Shown here one piece after another: positions 16,228-51,497 of a stretch of DNA of 64,000 nt. The stretch comes from Cristatella mucedo (lineage: Eukaryota > Bryozoa > Phylactolaemata > Cristatellidae): positions 4,753,501-4,817,500 of the forward strand of contig WPIO01000019.1 in NCBI GenBank assembly GCA_009760855.2. The letters are read 5' to 3'. The notes under the pieces were generated by a model. It was not told where the DNA came from. It did not search any database and saw only the letters and a list, made by a program, of their open reading frames with translations. The position numbers and the translations under genes are program-made. Position 1 is the stretch's first letter. Each line of letters opens with the position of its first letter.

Positions 16228-17338
16228 ATAATAATAATAATAATAGTTCACTTGATAAAGCGCCCTCAGAGAACTTAATCTCTCTCTCTCTCTCTAGGCG
16301 CTTTACATTTGCTGTAAAGTGAAATGCAATTGAATGGTAAGTAAAATCATGCTTGAAAAACAAACAAAATGAATAATATGGTTAGGGTGACATGCACAGG
16401 GTCAGCATGCAAATGTGGTTAGTGGCAGCATGCACAGTGTCAGCACGCATAAGCACATCAAGGACGAATCACAGGGACCCACTAAATGCTGTCCTAAATA
16501 GGTGTGTTTTTAGGTTCCTTTTAAATGTGGTCAGGTCAGGGGATGTTCTGACGCAGGTCGGGAGGGAGTTCCAGGCTTTGGGAGCATACGAACTAAATGC
16601 ACGGTTTCCAAAGGATTTAAGGTTTGTATGAGGTGTTTCTAGACTGTTGGATTCCGAAAAGCGGGTGGTACGATGCTTGGCCTGATGGGGTAGTATATCT
16701 GAGAGATAGGCTGGAGCCAAAGAATAAAGGGACCTAAAAGTGAGCGACAAAACCTTGAAGTCAATCCGTTGCTTGACTGGTAGCCAGTGCAGGTCGGCGA
16801 GAAGTGGTGTGACATGGCAACTGCGACGCTCACGACAGACAAGCCTAGCTGCAGAGTTTTGCACCAGCTGCAATCGCCTGATCGCACATGTTGGTAGGTC
16901 AGTAAGCAGTGAGTTGCAGAAGTCGAGACGGGATGTCACGAATGCATGGACCAACTTGGACGTGGTATCCTTATCTAAACAAGCCCGAATTTTAGCAATG
17001 TTATGAAGCTGAAAATAGGCGGATTTGACTGTGGAGCTGATATGGTCGTCTAACGAGAGGTCGCTTTGGAATATGACACCTAGATTTCGAGCTGATTCAA
17101 CTGGAGATATGCTGGCAGAGCCAATTTTGAGAGTCAGCCTTTCCAATCTCTGGATCACACTGGGTTTGCCCATAACTAGTAAGTTAGTTTTATCATCGTT
17201 AAGTTTTAGAAAATTTGCTGCCATCCATGTGCGGATGTCATCAATGCATGCAGCTAGTGAGTTTAGAGAATTTGAGGTGCTCGAAGGCTGGGAGGGATCA
17301 AAGCAAAGATACAACTGAGTGTCATCCGCATAGAAGTG
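16228..17338 (-). mobile_element. L2-like LINE, well-preserved 3' half
   Basis: A minus-strand copy with an uninterrupted frame from just upstream of the RT catalytic FYADDTQ motif (near 17320-17332) to the ORF2 stop near 16469. It passes through NDDKTNLLVMGKPSVIQ, HAFVTSRLDFCNSLL, NSAARLVC and FSSYAPKAWNSLP. The 3' UTR ends in a tail of ATT units (AAT on the plus strand) at 16229-16244. Within the terminal box a CT run has expanded (16279-16298). The copy is 5'-truncated just before the YADD motif. It encodes only the C-terminal half of a polymerase protein, so it is not autonomous, but its intact frame suggests a recent insertion. Confidence 0.88.
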
Positions 17339-17934
17339 AAAAAAGGTACTTCAGATGATCTTTGTCCATTCACGTCAATACTTGATGAGCTGTGACTGAG
17401 GGGGAGGCAGGCAGTTCGAATTCCGATGTATGGTAGACCGACTGTGTTCTGGAGCGCTGTTGGCGCCTGCGAGAACGCGCTCCTTTGCAAGCCAGCTTCG
17501 GTGTTCTGCGTGCAGTCGTGCGCGTGCTGTTTGGAGAGCTTAAACTGCAATCTGCCGCTATAAGGGCGAGCCGCGTAAAGGCAACCCGCTCTCCGAAAAG
17601 TCACCCACTCCACAAAGGAGCAGGAGGTCACCTTAGCAAAGAGGCACACCGCGTGAGTTAAGTGTCCGCTCGCTCTGGGCTGAGGCGGAACTCGGCTGAA
17701 CAAAGCTTTGATTCAATAGCAACGGCTCCGTACAAAGTTCGCGGGCAGCTAGCTCAATCGCCCTCTATGGACAAAACTTGGAAAGTCATGCCGAGTCCGT
17801 TTCGGAAGAAATGGCTGCGTGCGTTAACGTGGTCGGTTCGAAAGCACTACAACACGTTAACCCAATCATCGTCTAGTCAGGGCCAGGTCTCGCCCACCGC
17901 AGACCTTGACAGGCTTGGGTTCGACGAATTACCG
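17339..17934. other. Unassigned spacer
   Basis: No gene was recognised. GC content is higher around 17450-17700, and open frames there have no motif support. Confidence 0.4.
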
Positions 17935-19930
17935 CAATCCACCACAACCCACAGCAATCCACTGCAATCCGCTGCAATTCACCCCAATCCATTCTAATTA
18001 GGCTAACAACGACCGGATGTAAGCTCCATTATGCACACGCGTTCTCATGCAATGAATTGCAATCGACTGCAACGACCAGGTCCCACACAGCAATCCCCAT
18101 CAATCCGCCGAAATCCGCTGCAATCCGCCACACAGCAACCAGAACGCGTACACTAGAAGCTGAAGCTATAATTATGATTGCACGCTGCTGTACTCTTCGG
18201 TTATTGTGTACTTGCATAACTTCACTGTAATTGCCTCGGCCATTCTGCAGCAATGCATTGCAATCGACTGCAACTGCCCGGGCCAGTACGTCAATCTACT
18301 GCAACCCGCCGAAAAACAACCAGAATACGTACACTTTAAGCTCTAATAGTGATTGCACGTTGCTCTAATTTTTGGTTATTGTGTAATCCCTAAATCTCGC
18401 TACAATCGCCTCGATAATTCGGCAGCAATGCACTGCAATTGACTGCAATGGCCCGGACCAATAACTCAATTTACAGCAATCTGATGCAAAATGCCCTTAA
18501 ATCGGTTTCGCAATGGTCCATTTTTTAACGCAAGTTACAAAGTACTCTAGTTAAAGTCAACCACATCTTTTTAAGCAATTGCGCTCGTACAATCTCGGGT
18601 AATGCATGGCAATCTACGGCAACGGCTCGGCCCGAAGCAGCAATCCACTACAATCCGTGGCAAGTTGACACTAAATTGGCTGCACGAAGTGCTGATTGTC
18701 ATCGCATTTCACATTTCTTTGTACTAAAAGTGAAATCGTAGGACTTTCAAGCTATTTTGCACGTTAATTGTCAACAATGCACGGCAATCGACAGCAATGG
18801 CAGAGACCATTACCGAAATCCGTGGCAAATCGACGACAAATCGGCTGCACCAAGCTAACCACAAGATGGTAATGTCTAATTTCAAAGCGCACCCACAAAA
18901 TGCTGCGCCTTTGCGCATGCACGTTCTCGTGCAATGCACTGCAATCAATTGCAATGGCGCCGTTCCAAACCGCAATCTGCCGAAAAAACGACCAGAACTC
19001 GTACTCTAGAAGCTCCAATTATGACTGCACATTGCTTTAACCTTCGGTTGTTGTGCACTCGAACAATTTCACTGCAATTGCCGTGACCATTCTGAAGCAA
19101 TGCACTACAATCGACTGCAATGACCCGGGCCAATACCGCAATCGACCGCACTCCGCTACAAAATGCCCCGAAATCGGTTTCTCAATGCTCAATATTTGAA
19201 TGCATATTACAACGTCTTCTGTTTAAAGTGCAACCGTACCATTCTAACAAATTGTGATCGTACAATCTCAGGCAATGCATGGCAGTCTATGGCAATGCCT
19301 CGGCTTGAAGCAGCGATCCACTACAATCCGTGGCAAATCGACGAGAAATTATCATCGCCAAGTTCCAATAGTCATTGCATTTAACATTTCTCTGCGTTCA
19401 AAGTGAAATAATGGCATTCTAAAGCAGATTTTCTCATTAGCTGTCGGCAAGCAATGTACGGGAATTGACAGCAATGGTCGGGGCCAATACTGAAATCCGT
19501 GGCAAATCAACAAAACTGGCTTCGCAAAACTGCAATCCTTATTCCAAGTAACATCTCATTTTGCGCATGCATCATTTGCACTCATTGTACGCGTTCAATT
19601 GACGGCATCGCATAGCAATCGATGGCAGTGGCCCGGGGAAATACACCGATCCATAACGGTTCGTTACAAATAGACCAACAACCGTTGGGAGAAGCTCTAA
19701 CTTATCTTGCGTATTAAGTGCACAGTAATAAAATTGCAACAGCATCCTTTCAAACAACCACGAACGTACAATTGAGGGAATTGCTCGGCAATCAACGGCT
19801 ATGGCCCAGCTTCTACCGAAATCCGTTTCAAATTGACCAGAAAGTGGCGGTTCGAAGCTCCAGTTATCATGCCACATAACGTTCACTGTGCGAACACATA
19901 GTTTCAACCCGTGAAGAAGTCTATGTAAGA
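17935..19930. repeat. Satellite of ~170-bp monomers in a 4-mer higher-order repeat
   Basis: An anchor like GCAATGCACTGCAATCGACT recurs at about 18049, 18250, 18425, 18599, 18774, 18931, 19097, 19272, 19451, 19605 and 19777, a spacing of 154-201 bp. Anchors four apart are 672-681 bp away. Monomers four apart share private sequence: AAATCGGTTTC in the ones at 18425 and 19097, ATCCACTACAATCCGTGGCA at 18599 and 19272, GAAATCCGTGGCAAATC at 18774 and 19451, GCCGAAAAA with CCAGAA at 18250 and 18931. The last two monomers look like the 18425/18599 types, so one monomer seems lost near 19.6 kb. GCAAT also repeats every 10-11 bp inside the anchor. No coding function is proposed. Confidence 0.85.
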
Positions 19931-20329
19931 CTTCATTTAACTAGAAGCTACTGTAATTCGGTCAAGATTGCCGTATAGTCTATGCAGTCGAGAGTACGCT
20001 TACTTGAGGTCGACGGCGCGGGACTGTTGTGCTGGCGTATGACTGTCAACTCATGCAACGACATATGGTGTGATCAACAAATTGATCGTTCGTCTTATTC
20101 CCTTTATTGCAGCCGTGGAGCCGGTAACTTTTGTAGCTTGCTGCTGAAGCGTTCGCATGCTAAATCGCTCAGATTCATATACAGCTTACGATTGTTAGTG
20201 GTTCCTGAATTATAATGATCAGCAGCCGAACCTTTCATAACGTGTGCTATAACTGTAAGGAAAAGCCCATTTCAAGCGACCAGTCGTACTTCGGGCTAGG
20301 AACCAGTGCGTCGTACGCAATGGCTGTTG

Positions 20330-21763
20330 CTATACAGATGCGATCCTCTGTCACTACGAAATGGACTAATCTCCCTCTTGCCGATGTGATTGCCAAGCAC
20401 AATCTAGGCTTTCACTTCTATGTGGATGACACTCAGTCGTACCTTTGCTTTGATCCCTCCCAGCCTTCGAGAGCACCGAATTCTTTCAACTCCCTTGCTG
20501 CATGTATTGATGACATCCGCACATGGATGTCATCAAATTTTCTTAAATTAAATGATACAACTAACTTACTAGTTATTTTAAAACCAAGCGTGATTCAGAA
20601 ATTGGAAAGGCTAACGCTCAAAATTGGCTCTGCCAGCATATCTCCTCTGGAATCTGCACGAAACCTGGGTGTCATGTTCCAAAGTGACCTTTTGTTAGAC
20701 GACCACATCAGCTTTGCAGTCAAGTCTGCCCACTTTCAGCAACAAATCATAGTTAGAATTTGTGCTTTTTTAGATAAGGATATCACATCTAAGTTGGTCC
20801 ATGCATTTGTGACATCCCGTCTTGACTTCTGTAACTCACTGCTTGCTGGCCTACCGGCATGTGCGATCAGGCGCTTACAGCTGGTGCAAAACTCTGCAGC
20901 TAGGCTTGTCTGTCGTGAGCGTTGCAGTTGCCACACCACACTACTTCTCACCGACCTGCACTGGGTACCAGTCAAGCAATGGATTGACTTCAAGGTTTTG
21001 TCGCTCACTTTTAGGTCACTTCATTCTTTGGCTCCGGCCTATCTCTCAGATCTACTCCTCTACCAGGCCAAGCATCGTACCACCCGCTTTTCGGAATCTA
21101 ACAGTTTACCAACATCCGTGCAAACCTCAAATCCTTTGGAGATCGTGCATTTAGTTTGTATGCTCCCAAAGCCTGGAGCTCACCCGACATGCGTCACAAC
21201 ATCCCCTGACTTGACCACATTTAAATATAACTTAAAAACTCACCTACTTAGGATAGCATTTAGTGGGTCCATGTGATTCGTCCCTGTGCTTATGCGTGCT
21301 GACACTGTGCATGCTGCCACTAACGACATTTGCATGCTGACCCTGTGCATGTCACCCTTAACCATATTATTCATGTTTTTTTATCAAGCATGATGCCACT
21401 CACCATTCAATTGTGTTTCCTTTGCAGCAAATGTAAAGCACCCAAAGCATCAAATTGTTTATTCTCAAGTAACACTTCGCACTCCCAGCGAGAGAGCCCG
21501 TACTGCTCCGCCGTGCGTTTACTTCCCCACAGCCCTTCTCCTCCCTATCCGTCGCAACTCTCCGCACCCAAGGTCCGGCAGCTATAATTACTCGACGCGC
21601 AGCAGCTCCTCTTTTGTACACCCAACTGGCAAGCCGCAGAGGAGAGCCGGTCGTTGCAACAGCCACAACAACCAAGCCGGCAGCCGCTAATTATAACTAT
21701 AGCGCCTAGAAAGAGATTTGAGTTCTCCGATGGCGCTTTATCAAGTGTATTATTATTATTATG
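20330..21763 (+). pseudogene. L2-like LINE, long ORF2 3' half
   Basis: The frame runs from the RT motif FHFYVDDTQSYLCF, where YADD has become YVDD, through NLLVILKPSVIQKLE, HAFVTSRLDFCNSLLAG and NSAARLVCRER to a disturbed C-terminus near 21270. The 3' UTR follows and ends with AGAGATTTGAGTTCTC and an ATT tail at 21735-21763. A roughly 250-bp foreign piece interrupts the 3' UTR at 21445-21697. The YVDD change and the disturbed end indicate an older copy than those at 16.2 and 50.2 kb. Confidence 0.85.
21445..21697. mobile_element. Unidentified insertion in a LINE 3' UTR
   Basis: The LINE 3' UTR reads GCAGCAAATGTAAAGC at 21425-21440, then departs from the family sequence and resumes at 21699 with AGCGCCTAGAAAGAGATT. 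The intervening 250 bp is GC-richer and matches none of the window's repeat families. An AGC at both junctions could be a short target duplication. The element class is unknown. Confidence 0.45.
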
Positions 21764-27114: not shown

Positions 27115-27504
27115 CACTGCCCAGGATTTCTGCGAGTAGACCAAATCCTCACTAACGATGACCCTCAGCCGCACAGCAGCACCAAAATCACAGGTCACAC
27201 CTTCACCCATGCTCTTTTTTAAAATTGTACCGAACGCGAGCTACGTTGGTTTTTCTTTAGATTTCTGATATATTACTTGAAGCGATTATTTGAAAGTTGA
27301 GATCTTATACACTGCCCAGGATTTCTGCGAGTAGACCAAATCCTCACTAACGATGACCCTCAGCCGCACAGCAGCACCAAAATCACAGGTCACACCTTCA
27401 CCCATGCTCTTTTTTAAAATTGTACCGAACGCGAGCTACGTTGGTTTTTCTTTAGATTTCTGATATATTACTTGAAGCGATTATTTGAAAGTTGAGATCT
27501 TATA
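27115..27504. repeat. Perfect 195-bp tandem duplication
   Basis: 27115-27309 and 27310-27504 are identical over 195 bp, both starting CACTGCCCAGGATTTCTGCG and ending GTTGAGATCTTATA. No difference was seen in a base-by-base comparison. The unit has no relatives elsewhere in the window. Perfect identity means a very recent duplication or an assembly artefact. Confidence 0.95.
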
Positions 27505-43610: not shown

Positions 43611-44381
43611 CGCACGCACGCACAGACACGCACGCACAGACACGCACGCACAGACACGCACGCACAGACACGCACGCACAGACACGCACGCACAGACACG
43701 CACGCACAGACACGCACGCACAGACACGCACGCACAGACACGCACGCACAGACACGCACGCACAGACACGCACGCACAGACACGCACGCACAGACACGCA
43801 CGCACAGACACGCACGCACAGACACGCACGCACAGACACGCACGCACAGACACGCACGCACAGACACGCACGCACAGACACGCACGCACAGACACGCACG
43901 CACAGACACGCACGCACAGACACGCACGCACAGACACGCACGCACAGACACGCACGCACAGACACGCACGCACACACACGCACAGACGCACGCACAGACA
44001 CGCACGCACAGACACAGACACGCACGCACAGACACGCACGCACAGACACGCACGCACCGACACGCACGCACAGACACGCACGCACGCACAGACACGCACG
44101 CACAGACACGCACGCACAGACACGCACGCACAGACACGCACGCACAGACACGCACGCACAGACACGCACGCACAGACACGCACGCACAGACACGCACGCA
44201 CAGACACGCACGCACAGACACGCACGCACAGACACGCACGCACGACACGCACGCACAGACACGCACGCACAGACACGCACGCACAGACACGCACGCACAG
44301 ACACGCACGCACAGACACGCACGCACAGACACGCACGCACAGACACGCACGCACAGACACGCACACACAGACACACACAAA
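43611..44381. repeat. Minisatellite, 14-bp unit, ~55 copies
   Basis: The unit GACACGCACGCACA is repeated with few variants (for example a shortened unit near 43972-43995, CCGACA near 44057, a missing base near 44244). The plus strand of the array carries no T, so stops cannot occur on either strand and every frame is open for about 290 codons; these frames are not genes. The alternating purine-pyrimidine pattern could adopt Z-DNA. Confidence 0.97.
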
Positions 44382-44766: not shown

Positions 44767-47560
44767 TTCTTTACCTCTGTTGTCCAGCTGTTATGGTTAT
44801 CCTTGAAAAAGCTAACGTTTAAAAAGTGATAGGTATGTCATCAATGTAATTTGGGCCGGCCCAGTTGTGGTTTAAAGAATGGCTTACAGAAAACAGGCTC
44901 AACGGTGCAACGTGCAAGCTAAGGTGAATTCGAAGCAATCGGAGTCCAGGGAAATTGGTCAATACTTCAAAATTGTTTACTCCGTATTGTAAGGCCAGCC
45001 TTCTTTAAAATAGAAAAGGGCAAAGCCTTCTGGGCTGCAATGACTGCCGCACCTCATAGAGTTTGGTATTCAGCGTGAGAGGAATCTTCAGAACACAGTT
45101 CCACAAGTAATTCTGCTATTACCAGCAACACTAGCTACCAGTTTGAGATGATCCAGCGAATGGTCGTCCCATATACGTTCGTATTGGGCAAGTTGGAAGA
45201 TATGAGCTCAAAGGTCATGCCTGCCCCTGATCACTCTCGATAGTTCCGCTACATTTTTATCGCTACTTTTTGTTAGCGAATGAGTGAGATCGATATGTAG
45301 CACACTCAGGTTACGCTGCAGCTGGACGAGAGGGGATCATCACTCGCCACAGAATAACTGATAAGTATTTCGCAGATAAAAACCCAGCGGCAGCATGATG
45401 CTTACGGTGCAACTGCAATTATTTGATGCTACCAACGACCTAAGTGAAATTTGCTACAATATTAATTTGCCAGTGCATCTATTTGCCACAATGGACGGTT
45501 GTCAGAATCCGGAAGTGAGAATAACTCCGGTTGTGGGGGCATTTCGAATTCCTTGTAGATTTGATGATTCTAGAGTGAATTGAATAGAGTTATAAAAAGC
45601 ATGACCTTGCAAGTACGCGATTCTCGTCAATTGGCGAACCAAAACCCGGCATCCAGTAGCAGTCCCACGACGAATGCAAATATCTCAAGAATCATGTCGC
45701 ACGTCATTGTGAGGGTTAATAGGCCCTGCGGCAAACGGGCGTTGTGGCAACTCTTCGCTTCACCAGCCAGTGTCATTCACTACGTGGAGCCGCCTCAGCG
45801 GATACCCGGCAGCCCAGCTCGTCCCTCTTGCACTATTTGGTCGGAAGGGTTTAAAGTTTAATTTTGATATCGCTAATCACTCGTTTGGGAATATTCCGTA
45901 GTATTCTTGGAAATAAATGACTAATTCGAGAAATAACCGTTGCTGACGCGGTCCAAAGGAAAGGCTCCACTTGGCGATGGCTTAGCAGACGAATTTTCGC
46001 AGTTCCATTTACTCTACTTTATTAGTTGGCAAAAGGGCCGTCTAAACTCGAAAGAACAGTCTCTCGACCTTTATTAATGCAAGTTACCTCTTCTGAATCA
46101 GTAACGAAGTGACCCGAATTAAGCGCAGCTCCGGTTTGGAAAGAAGCCAGCACAAGCCTTGGGTAATTCAAGATATCTAGCAGCTCGTCGCTAACAGGAG
46201 CCGGAAACAACTGAAGAGCGAGGGTGTAGAAACCAGCTAACTCTGAAGTCCGACCCGTGCATTTCTGAATATGGCTGATAACCGCTCTTAAATCGCCGTA
46301 AGTGAACGCTACGTGTCTCGGCTAAACGTCGTCTCGAGCGCTATTTCCGCGATGCCGGTCATGGCCTCCTTGACCTCTTGTCCAGCGATTGGGCTAAAGC
46401 ATCTTGTGCTAACGCCTGCGGGCCAGTCAGTGCCCATTCTGAAATGATAGTTTTGATTCTGAGACTTTTGTATGAACAGTGTGAGCTTTACTGAGGTACC
46501 CAGCTCTCGCTAATTATACAGCTTTTGGAACGCTATTTTGCTCTATAGGACAAACTCAAAGCGATGCAGGAAGCACAATGAAATCGCATGATAGTATTTG
46601 AAAGTTGGTAACCAGCTGAACAGAAGGTTGATTGTCTACGTTGTTGACTGGCGATGTTATACTAATTTCAACGGTTGGCCAGAGTAGCTCGAAGGGGGAA
46701 ATGGCTTGGCCGCGTCGAAGTGTAGGCCCAGAGAAGTGGGCTAGATCTTAAGTAGTCACGAGACTTTCGGAACCCCGTGCGAACAAGCACTGGTCACTTT
46801 ACCCAAAACCCAATGTAGCTAGTTGGTGCTACAATGGAATTGCTATTAGTTATCTTACTTGGTGCTACAATGGAATTGCTATTAGTTATCTTACGCTTGC
46901 AAGCATGGGTGTTAAATGCATACGATCAGACTAGACTTGATCGTCCTCTAGCAAGTTAAGTTTGTGCAGCCCATTGTGCGACCTGCCGTCGGAAACTGCC
47001 GTTGTCGTTTACATAGCCACGCCTGCTACTGACTGGGAAGCAGGCATTACCTACACGGGCTTAAGTGAGAGCTGAAAAGATGTCCCCTTTGAAAAGATCC
47101 TGCTGACATAGGTCCTGCTGAGTGCATTTGGCTATTTGGTGGTGTGCCTATTTGTGTGGAGGTGGTTTATCGAGTCTATTTACAATGAAACCTAGCTTTG
47201 TATTTGTGAGCTGTTCAATCTGACAGACAGACACTGAGTACCCTAGCACAGCTCAGCTGACCTAAATGCCTTAATGGCAAATAGATTGATTCGTTGATTC
47301 AAAAGGCGTCACCCGAGTATTGCTGGTTGGCTTAAACAATGCTGGGCATTAGTTCTTGTTGAAGTTGAACTATACAATGCAGTCTTCATGATCTAGGATT
47401 GTAATCCCAATAGATATTAGCCAGAGATTACCATGTTCCTTCACTAACCACAAGAGCCTGGAACAGAGTAGTACTAGTCCGTCAGTTATATCACTTGTTA
47501 GGTGGCTGATCTATGGTTTCGTACTTTTCCTTGTTACTATGCAGTTCTGTGAATTGTAGG
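44767..47560. other. Region upstream of the guanylate cyclase gene
   Basis: No gene was recognised. The promoter and 5' UTR of the downstream receptor gene should lie at its right end. A possible acceptor, TTGTAG, sits at 47554-47559, directly before the likely start codon, so the 5' UTR may be spliced. Confidence 0.4.
46823..46894. repeat. Perfect 36-bp tandem duplication
   Basis: Two identical 36-bp units (46823-46858 and 46859-46894), each beginning TTGGTGCTACAATGGAATTG. There are no further copies nearby. Confidence 0.95.
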
Positions 47561-48025
47561 ATGAGATTATTAAACCTGCTGATTGTTGCCGGAGGAATAG
47601 CCCTTTGCCTTGGTATGCAACCAAATTGGAAAGATTACGTTAGCAACGAGCCTTTTCCGAAATGGCCACCCGAAAGTGCTTTGCCTATTGGAAAACGAGT
47701 GCTGCACATTGGCTATGTGACCAGTGCTGGATCGGCTCTGACTCATTCAGGCAGCAGCATAGTTTCATTCGGCAACCAGTTAGGATACCTCATCAGCGGG
47801 GCAATATCGCTGGCCGTCAGTGAGATCAACAATCGAAGCGATCTGCTTCCTGATCACGCTCTTCAGTTTTCCTTTGCTGATGCATCTGGTTTTGAAGAAC
47901 TCAGCATACAGTACACAAGCCGTCTCCTTGAGGAAGAAAATGTTTCTGCAATAATTGGGCCACAGGACACTTGCCTTACTGAGGCTAGCATGGCTCACTC
48001 ATATAACAAGTTGATGATATCATAT
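47561..48025 (+). CDS. Gyc76C: Receptor guanylate cyclase (Gyc76C-like), exon 1
   Basis: First coding exon of a membrane receptor that should convert GTP to cGMP on ligand binding; only its extracellular part lies in the window. From the ATG at 47561 it encodes a signal peptide (LLNLLIVAGGIALCLG) and the start of the ANF-receptor-type ligand-binding domain: HIGYVTS, then GAISLAVSEINNRSDLLPDH, LQFSFADASG, and IIGPQDTCLTEASMAHSYN before LMISY. In family members the matching pattern is GAxxLAVEEIN, LLPxHxLxF, GPxxxCxxEA, PMISY. N-glycosylation sites are possible at NRS and NVS. The frame also allows an ATG at 47513; 47561 gives the more usual signal peptide. The exon ends before the donor GTGAGT, phase 0. 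The Gyc76C assignment rests on the later exons. Confidence 0.87.
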
Positions 48026-49272
48026 GTGAGTAGTGCAGTGAAATCAACTTGAAGTTCTATCTGACTTTTGTGTTACAGTGGCTTTGCCATGCACGTGCTA
48101 CTGTGCTCTTTTCTTTCTGCTGCTAATCAGCCCTCAAGAGGTTTGCAATACCAGAAGCTTGAGTACAAACGTGCAGTCTTTTATGTGTTGTGCATGATGT
48201 CGGACTTAAACTGGTTTGCTATTTTCTAATGCAGAGCTTCAGTGCCATTTGCTTGATCCGCTCGAACTACATCAGTTGTATGTATACTTATTTGGGATTT
48301 TTGCACTGTGCCGGTGGGGAGCTGGAAGTTTCTCCTAACGCTCTCTTGATCGAAAGGGTTGATTTGTATCAGCACTGCCACAAGGATTAGGTAAACTTAA
48401 TGTGTTCACGATCAATTTCTATGCAACAGCAAAACTTGACTAGTTTTGCTATAATTGTAAGGTAGGTACAAATGTGCTTTTGTGAATATTCTCAAAAGAC
48501 TTATGTGACAATGCAAAGGCTCATGCACGGCAACTACCTCATTTAATGTTGCTGTGTTTTTAGGAGTCGCCAAGAGGCCATCTGGCTTGATTGAGTAGGA
48601 CCTTCCAACTTCAGAATTTGTATCGGCCGCACGATCTGTCAAGATGAAATAGCCCACATGCAGTGTCAGTTTCGAATCGATGAAGGACACGTTAACAGGG
48701 AGCGATTGCATGCTCCAAGTTAGAAACTAGCCCGTTCTGCTACTAAACGCCTTTCACTTATTCCAGTAAAGGCTATTGAGACAGAATGCTAGGTAAACCC
48801 AGAAGGGAAATTGAGAATGCAGCTTGCTGAAATCAGGTGTGAGAGAGTACACATGGCATTTCCTCTCACGACTTTCCGACGAAGTCATTTCTCATGCGTT
48901 TTGACCGTTAATTGCTTGCTGGTCTACACTAAGCTTCCAAAAGGTAATACTTAACTTACCTGAATATTCTTGTGAATGCCTTTACACATTAATGTCTGTG
49001 TATATGCCTGACAGTGGCTGTCCTAGCAAGGCTTCCTCCTTGGGTTCATCTTGGTTTCGCAGCTTACATGTGGGTGAGAGCATGCTTGCATTTGCAAACA
49101 TGCACATGTGCACGCAAACATTTATACGTGCACACACAAACGCTTGTTGATATTACAGTCGTGCAGAGAAATCCAGCATTTCTGCTCTTGATGTCTCCAA
49201 TAAAGCTGATGTTCACACGTTGTTTGGTCAGCAGTCTGTAGAACATTTACCTGCCAGCCCTTGTGTTTGCAG
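48026..49272. other. Receptor gene intron 1
   Basis: A 1.25-kb intron with a GTGAGT donor and a TTTGCAG acceptor. No repeats of the main families were seen in it. Confidence 0.7.
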
Positions 49273-50221: not shown

Positions 50222-51378
50222 AGGTTCTTTTCACGGTTTATACTCCCCCTCTTGCTGATGTGATTGCCACGCACAATCTAGGCTTTCACTTCTATGCGGA
50301 TGATACTCAGATGTGCCTTTGCTTTGATCCCTCCCAGCCTTCGAGCACCTCAAATTTGCCCAACTCCCTTGCTGCATGTATTGATGACATTCGCACATGG
50401 ACGGCAGCAAATTTTCTTATACTAAACGATGATAAAACTAACTTACTAGTTATGGGAAAACCCAGTGTGATCCAGAGATTGGAAAGGCTGACTCTCAAAA
50501 TTGGCTCTGCCAGCATATCTCCAGTTGAATCAGCTCGAAATCTAGGTGTCATATTCCAAAGCAACCTCTCGTTAGACGACCATATCAGCTCCACAGTCAA
50601 ATCCGCCTATTTTCAGCTTCATAACATTGCTAAAATTCGGGCTTGTTTAGATAAAGATACCACGTCCAAGTTGGTCCATGCATTCGTGACATCCCGTCTC
50701 GACTTCTGCAACTCACTGCTTACTGACCTACCAACATGTGCGATCAGGCGATTGCAGCTGGTGCAAAACTCTGCAGCTAGGCTTGTCTGTCGTGAGCGTC
50801 GCAGTTGCCATGTCACACCACTTCTCGCCGACCTGCACTGGCTACCAGTCAAGCAACGGATTGACTTCAAGGTTTTGTCGCTCACTTTTAGGTCCCTTCA
50901 TTCTATGGCTCCAGCCTATCTGTCAGATCTACTACCCCATCAGGCCAAGCATCGTACCACCCGCTTTTCGGAATCCAACAGTCTAGAAATACCTCATACA
51001 AACCTTAAATTCTTTGGAGACCGTGCATTTAGTTCGTATGCTCCCAAAGCCTGGAACTCCCTCCCGACCTGCGTCAGAATATCCCCTGACTTGACCACAT
51101 TTAAAAATAACTTAAAAACACCTATTTAGGACAGCATTTAGTGGGTCCCTGTGATTCATCCTTCATGTGCTTGTGTGTGATGACACTGTGCATGCTGCCA
51201 CTAACCACATTTGCAGGCTGACCCTATGCATGTCACCCTAACCATATTATTCATTTTGTTTATTATTCAAGCTTGAATTTACTTACCATTCAATTGCATT
51301 TCCCTTTGCAGCAAATGTAAAGCTCCTAGAAAGAGATTAAGTTCTCTGAGGGCGCTTTATCAAGTGCATTATTATTAT
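50222..51378 (+). mobile_element. L2-like LINE, well-preserved 3' half
   Basis: Open from the RT motif FHFYADDTQMCLCF (the catalytic YADD at 50293-50304) through NDDKTNLLVMGKPSVIQ, HAFVTSRLDFCNSLLTDL and NSAARLVCRERRSCH to FSSYAPKAWNSLP. A change near 51120 alters the last residues. The complete 3' UTR follows, with AGAGATTAAGTTCTCTGAGG and an ATT tail. It is truncated just upstream of YADD, like the 16.2-17.3-kb copy, to which it is almost identical. It sits in intron 2 of the receptor gene. Confidence 0.88.
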
Positions 51379-51379
51379 T

Positions 51380-51497
51380 ATAACTCGCCCAACCAAGGTC
51401 TGTTTTGAGGTCGTAGGGTTGAGCCCCAAAGCATATGTGAAGTACTTGAATAGTGATTAAGTTTCCCCTTAGGGCGTTATGCAAATGAATTAATTTT
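51380..51497 (+). mobile_element. SINE family A, 5'-truncated
   Basis: Starts within the tRNA part (CCCAACCAAGGTCTG), keeps GAGGTCGTAGGGTTGAGCCC and the tail GTTATGCAAATGAATTA with a T-rich end. It directly abuts the ATT tail of the LINE before it. Confidence 0.75.

Follow-up and report, generated by a model that had tools for sequence, protein, structure and literature searches.

A tandem array of 11 head-to-tail monomers lies on the forward strand between position 18050 and approximately position 19925 of the window (i.e., the whole 64-kb stretch of Cristatella mucedo DNA that was analyzed). The anchors of the monomers (m1 to m11, from left to right) start at 18050, 18251, 18426, 18600, 18775, 18932, 19098, 19273, 19452, 19606, and 19776, giving successive spacings of 201, 175, 174, 175, 157, 166, 175, 179, 154, and 170 bp. 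The monomers are 154 to 201 bp long, and 7 of the 11 measure 166 to 179 bp. A monomer profile matches all 11 units, which holds by construction, and also matches the left edge of the array (E = 0.0004). Without recourse to a profile, 48 of the 55 monomer pairs scored above 6.0, the top score among 300 dinucleotide-shuffled pairs (mean, -9; standard deviation, 4.8); the other seven pairs each include m9, m10, or m11. On the basis of these spacings and scores, the anchor period of about 170 bp proposed in the sequence-only reading is borne out. Two monomer profiles gave no match with an E value of <0.1 outside the array in the 64-kb window, and no second copy of the monomer family was seen there. 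A TRF run reported a 175-bp row inside the array (1.8 copies; 18163 to 18479) and 10-bp rows at 17931 to 17991 and 18102 to 18129; its longest period was 500, so a 672-bp period was beyond its reach.

Three monomer types are supported by the maximum-likelihood tree (support given as SH-aLRT/UFBoot). Type A (99.8/100) comprises m1 (18050 to 18250; 201 bp, of which about 20 are additional anchor bases in the alignment), m2 (18251 to 18425), and m6 (18932 to 19097); type B (94.6/94) comprises m3 (18426 to 18599) and m7 (19098 to 19272); and type C (99.3/99) comprises m4 (18600 to 18774) and m8 (19273 to 19451). The pairwise scores place m2, m6, m7, and m8 in the same types, and the best-partner scores are 74 for m1-m2, 68.5 for m1-m6, 67.5 for m2-m6, 95.5 for m3-m7, and 81.3 for m4-m8. 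Two further self-BLAST alignments (18120 to 18309 versus 18972 to 19156, 76%; 18112 to 18304 versus 18293 to 18479, 75%) also group m1, m2, and m6 together.

The remaining monomers are less clearly assigned. Monomers m5 (18775 to 18931) and m9 (19452 to 19605), both with an anchor about one 10-bp unit shorter, are provisionally designated type D, m9 on the basis of BLAST, the alignment, and the tail tests. They are reciprocal best partners (score, 40.8) and have their first ~60 bp in common, but the match between their tails hardly exceeds chance (P of ~0.025; 600 shuffles), being no better than that of m5-m3 (0.017), m5-m4 (0.012), or m9-m8 (0.005). They do not group in the tree, in which m5 stands beside type B (13.2/21) and m9 beside m11 (83.1/42). 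Some cross-type matches to the two-member D model score higher (up to 27.1) than D members do in leave-one-out scoring (10.8 and 8.3 bits), so D is not cleanly defined as a type. The diverged m10 (19606 to 19775) has a B-like tail (B profile, 18.3 bits, against a shuffle maximum of 1.8; D profile, -0.3; no A or C match reported), and pairwise tail tests place it nearest m3 and m7. The last monomer, m11 (19776 to 19925, the array end; nhmmer match at 19780 to 19913 with an envelope to 19925), is ambiguous between C (22.4 bits) and D (21.8 bits) and is nearest m9, followed by m6 and m8. The cuts of m10 and m11 lie at 19612 and 19782 in the multiple alignment and at 19606 and 19776 in the other analyses. 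Ahead of the first full monomer, a partial tail on the same strand (m0; 18000 to 18049) is perhaps D-like: its D tail profile score is weak (6.4 bits; shuffle maximum, 2.3), and its best pairwise partner is m5 (P of ~0.017), followed by m6 (0.027) and m11 (0.033).

The left edge of the array (17931 to 17999, forward strand) consists of 10-bp GCAATCC-type subrepeats (TRF period 10; 6.1 copies at 17931 to 17991). GCAAT occurs in 35 exact copies in positions 17901 to 19944, and the 34 gaps between them include nine of 10 bp, four of 20 bp, three of 31 bp, and two of 21 bp. The 10- to 11-bp GCAAT spacing that had been noticed within the anchor is therefore confirmed as a 10-bp subrepeat. At lag 10, identity falls from 0.73 in the left edge to 0.445 over the anchor (the first 65 bp of each monomer) and to 0.245 over the remainder. 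In the multiple alignment, the m1 anchor is longer by ~20 bp and those of m5, m6, m9, and m11 are shorter by ~9 to 11 bp; thus, anchors differ in length by roughly whole 10-bp steps. A 10-bp minisatellite is the most plausible precursor of the anchor. It had also been suggested that this spacing might favor nucleosomes. The power near 10.2 bp in the array was equaled by 5 of 95 background windows for WW dinucleotides, 15 of 95 for SS, and 29 of 95 for AA/TT (these windows overlap one another, and those touching the array or the microsatellites at 36.5 to 44.5 kb were left out). Given these background counts and the restriction of the 10-bp subrepeat to the anchor, the support for nucleosome positioning is marginal at best.

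One collinear self-BLAST alignment crosses the monomer borders, pairing positions 18250 to 18834 (i.e., A, B, C, and the start of D) with positions 18931 to 19511 on the same strand (74.45% over 591 columns; E = 1e-103). Within it, the lag-4 distances are 681 bp (m2-m6), 672 bp (m3-m7), and 673 bp (m4-m8), with 74 to 78% identity over aligned bases, and the alignment reaches just the first ~60 bp of m5 and m9. The seven lag-4 pairs thus include three strong ones, one partial one (m5-m9), and three that fail, namely, m1-m5, m6-m10, and m7-m11, which show no special likeness (scores, 9.9, 2.8, and 10.6). The mean pair scores for lags 1 to 7 are 30.4, 22.5, 23.4, 44.1, 28.7, 23.9, and 16.5. Compared with 50,000 permuted monomer orders, the lag-4 mean has a P value of 0.009 if the lag is named beforehand and of 0.058 if any lag from 1 to 6 is allowed. 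The sequence-only reading had held that monomers four apart (672 to 681 bp) are closer than neighbors; this is the case for the three pairs inside the block, in part for m5-m9, and not for the other three. The tree, which had been named beforehand as the test that could speak against this closeness, is favorable for three types of the four (A, B, and C; not D).

The four-monomer register is real but limited: it reflects one block duplication and not a repeating tetramer. Two copies of the unit are clear, and a third is hinted at by m0, m10, and m11 only. The block copies are 75.3% identical over 661 aligned bases and so fall short of the near-identity of units seen in alpha-satellite-like higher-order repeats. 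Because only one block duplication can be detected behind the register, "higher-order repeat" marks the strongest permissible reading; it is safe to state that a block of approximately 3.4 monomers or more (~585 bp) was duplicated once and that type A was doubled. The order D A A B C D A B C D B (C or D) would be compatible with a longer higher-order array that is short of at least one monomer near 19.6 kb. The earlier proposal that one monomer was lost there is possible in view of the B-like tail of m10, but the number lost is not fixed, given the C/D ambiguity of m11.

The large divergence and old age first ascribed to the array are upheld. The K2P distance between the block copies is 0.284 (575 aligned bases) or 0.303 (661 bases), while four comparisons of LINE copies in the window gave values of 0.045, 0.138, 0.127, and 0.068. 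If rates are equal, the block duplication would predate the divergence of these nearby LINE copies. The six within-type monomer pairs have similar K2P values (0.259 to 0.332), as one amplification episode would give. Eight neighboring pairs have values of 0.317 to 0.510, of which that of m4-m5 (0.317) overlaps the within-type range and that of m6-m7 (0.343) is near it; K2P separates the types poorly, since individual monomers are so easily aligned that even shuffled pairs reach 66% identity. The lag-4 block alignment contains 88 transitions and 75 transversions, while a lag-3 control (54 and 112) is near the random ratio of 1:2. The lag-5 blocks (95 and 110) are not random either, as expected if m1 and m6 are both of type A; the lag-2 control blocks (59 and 102) overlap each other, and we place no weight on them. 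The lag-1 blocks, which also overlap, aligned to themselves and were discarded. Anchors are more alike than tails, at 0.81 versus 0.73 for pooled within-type comparisons (with m1-m6 the other way round) and 0.71 versus 0.64 between types; this conservation could reflect constraint. The observed/expected CpG ratio in the array (18000 to 19925) is 1.13, higher than the 0.84 of the window as a whole, despite the array's old appearance.

A coding repeat was rejected. The monomer lengths vary, each of the six frames of positions 17900 to 19950 contains 22 to 36 stops, and the longest open frame in this interval (122 codons; reverse strand, 19572 to 19940) has no Pfam match. With 11 head-to-tail monomers on one strand and stops in all six frames, the array has the head-to-tail non-coding monomers of satellite DNA in the broad sense. 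Rfam gave no match at the gathering score in the whole window, and a permissive search of positions 17800 to 20050 gave one match below the cutoff (GA-cis; 19.3 bits versus 34.7 needed; E = 0.67); ARAGORN found no tRNA. We also counted the core pattern of the CENP-B box, as commonly given, with at most one mismatch. The window contains five sites (all with one mismatch; one in the array) versus 6.7 expected, so a CENP-B box in the array is not above chance.

The array lies between two 5'-truncated LINE copies that point away from it and start ~590 bp (left) and ~440 bp (right) from it. The left copy (16234 to 17341, reverse strand) is 94.8% identical to positions 50284 to 51381 and has a weak RVT_1 match (20.2 bits versus a cutoff of 29.6) that begins at profile position 148 of 205. 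The right copy (20367 to 21442, forward strand) is 86.2% identical to positions 50241 to 51326 and has no Pfam match; a separate 65-bp match to the 3' end of the same LINE lies at 21698 to 21762. We take both to be LINEs, partly from familiar reverse transcriptase motifs, besides the weak RVT_1 match and the repeated copies, and both would be truncated inside the reverse transcriptase. The LINE copies at 17341 (reverse), 20367 (forward), 9232 (reverse), and 34261 (forward) start within ~60 bp of the same point of the 50-kb copy (50223 to 50284). This common start may be a nonrandom truncation point, a shortened master copy, or the 50-kb copy's own start. Other features of the window include a likely coding exon at 47510 to 48049 (encoding the beginning of a ligand-binding domain, ANF_receptor; E = 2.2e-09), a perfect 195-bp tandem duplication at 27115 to 27504 (2.0 copies, 100% matches; very recent or an assembly artifact), a perfect tandem duplication of 36 bp at 46823 to 46894, and a 14-bp minisatellite, CACGCACGCACAGA, at 43613 to 44378 (54.5 copies, 95% matches). 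The ANF_receptor exon and the LINEs give the window the look of animal DNA.

An exact anchor pattern had no matches in viral_contigs and one in genome_contigs, on a contig of a Bacteroidales MAG. When this locus was compared with the window by BLAST, only a 26-bp match (92%) resulted, which we read as chance. Since the pattern was exact and the collections are viral and prokaryotic, the result says little about animals. A LINE protein had no confirmed relative in viral_contigs.

The neighborhood bears on two readings in which the array belongs to a mobile element. In one, a non-autonomous element (Helentron/HINE-like or similar) would have spread with the array as its central tandem-repeat module, flanks included. 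According to two reports, short satDNA-like arrays sit in euchromatin, often as parts of transposable elements (PMC10048060), and oyster Cg_HINE (Helentron) elements carry such arrays (PMC7492417); the window also holds many LINE copies. However, no second copy of the array or of its flanks (17342 to 17930 and 19926 to 20366) was detected in the window at the search thresholds applied, and no inverted repeat of at least 20 bp joins the two flanks. Inverted repeats of at least 10 bp within 60 bp are absent from positions 19900 to 20370, and three imperfect ones (71 to 92%) lie in positions 17342 to 17940; no ends of a larger element were recognized around the array. We consider this origin unlikely. 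In mouse L1, 5'-untranslated-region (5'-UTR) promoter repeats occur as monomers, and the LINE copies facing away on both sides could suggest that the present monomers are repeats of this kind. Yet the array abuts no native LINE 5' end, its neighbors being truncated and 440 to 590 bp away, and the left one begins so far into RVT_1 that its truncation would fall within the reverse transcriptase; a 5'-UTR origin is thus extremely improbable.

The register itself would fit an outlying remnant of a true higher-order satellite, centromeric or pericentromeric, whose unit was four monomers, and the B-like m10 and weakly D-like m0 would extend the order beyond the duplicated block. Homogenization is described as less efficient at array ends in a report that also presents a model in which arrays deteriorate once homogenization fails (PMC10048060). 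Against this reading stand the single clear block duplication, the failure of three of the seven lag-4 pairs, the P value of 0.058 with the lag not named beforehand, the absence of D from the tree, and the lack of CENP-B-box excess. Such a relic is quite unlikely, and we regard as very unlikely the fuller version in which the locus is a fossil, among LINEs, of an ancestral four-monomer centromeric higher-order satellite with three tiers (10 bp, ~170 bp, and ~675 bp).

We therefore favor, as the probable explanation, a short, decayed, non-coding, satellite-like array that most likely has no present function; the class would here be represented by one ~2-kb array in the 64-kb window. Judging from the subrepeats, a 10-bp GCAATCC-type minisatellite may have become the anchor third of a ~170-bp monomer, and unequal exchange or rolling-circle reinsertion would have turned this unit into a short array whose members diverged. 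The alignments show two later events, the tandem duplication of about four adjacent monomers and the doubling of a type A monomer; their mechanism we infer. Homogenization would then have stopped, leaving the array to decay by point mutation and by slippage in ~10-bp steps. As it stands, the array adds one more decayed repeat locus and is of small import. Should the genome also contain long arrays of this family, the locus would offer a view of a higher-order satellite after homogenization ended, dated against the surrounding LINE copies.

Comparable repeats are described in several reports. A survey of 171 species with Sanger data saw clear higher-order structure in 76 and termed it widespread (PMC4053949), and the satellites of Tribolium castaneum have a favored monomer length of 140 to 180 bp with dimeric higher-order repeats in some families (PMC10218199); as far as these accounts go, such organization is not peculiar to primates. 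The present array resembles the Tribolium satellites in monomer length, tandem order, and divergent subfamilies; it differs in being one ~2-kb array with 22 to 26% within-type divergence. The organization of primate alpha satellite, to which the locus had been likened, is shared as regards the ~170-bp monomers and a multimonomer register. However, alpha satellite higher-order units are reported to be up to 97 to 100% identical, with monomers at ~70% (PMC8122249), whereas the blocks here are 75 to 77% alike over aligned bases, with one clear duplication and no CENP-B-box excess. The Pacific oyster offers, by description, short, dispersed Cg_HINE arrays of similar monomer length and the Repbase entry SAT-2_CGi, which is of similar size (668 bp) and is made up of four ~168-bp monomers (PMC7492417); those monomers share 95.4% similarity, and around the present array no element ends or shared flanks appeared in the window. 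Since similar repeats are common in animal and plant genomes, the array is real but ordinary, and it fits the decayed end of the known satellite range.
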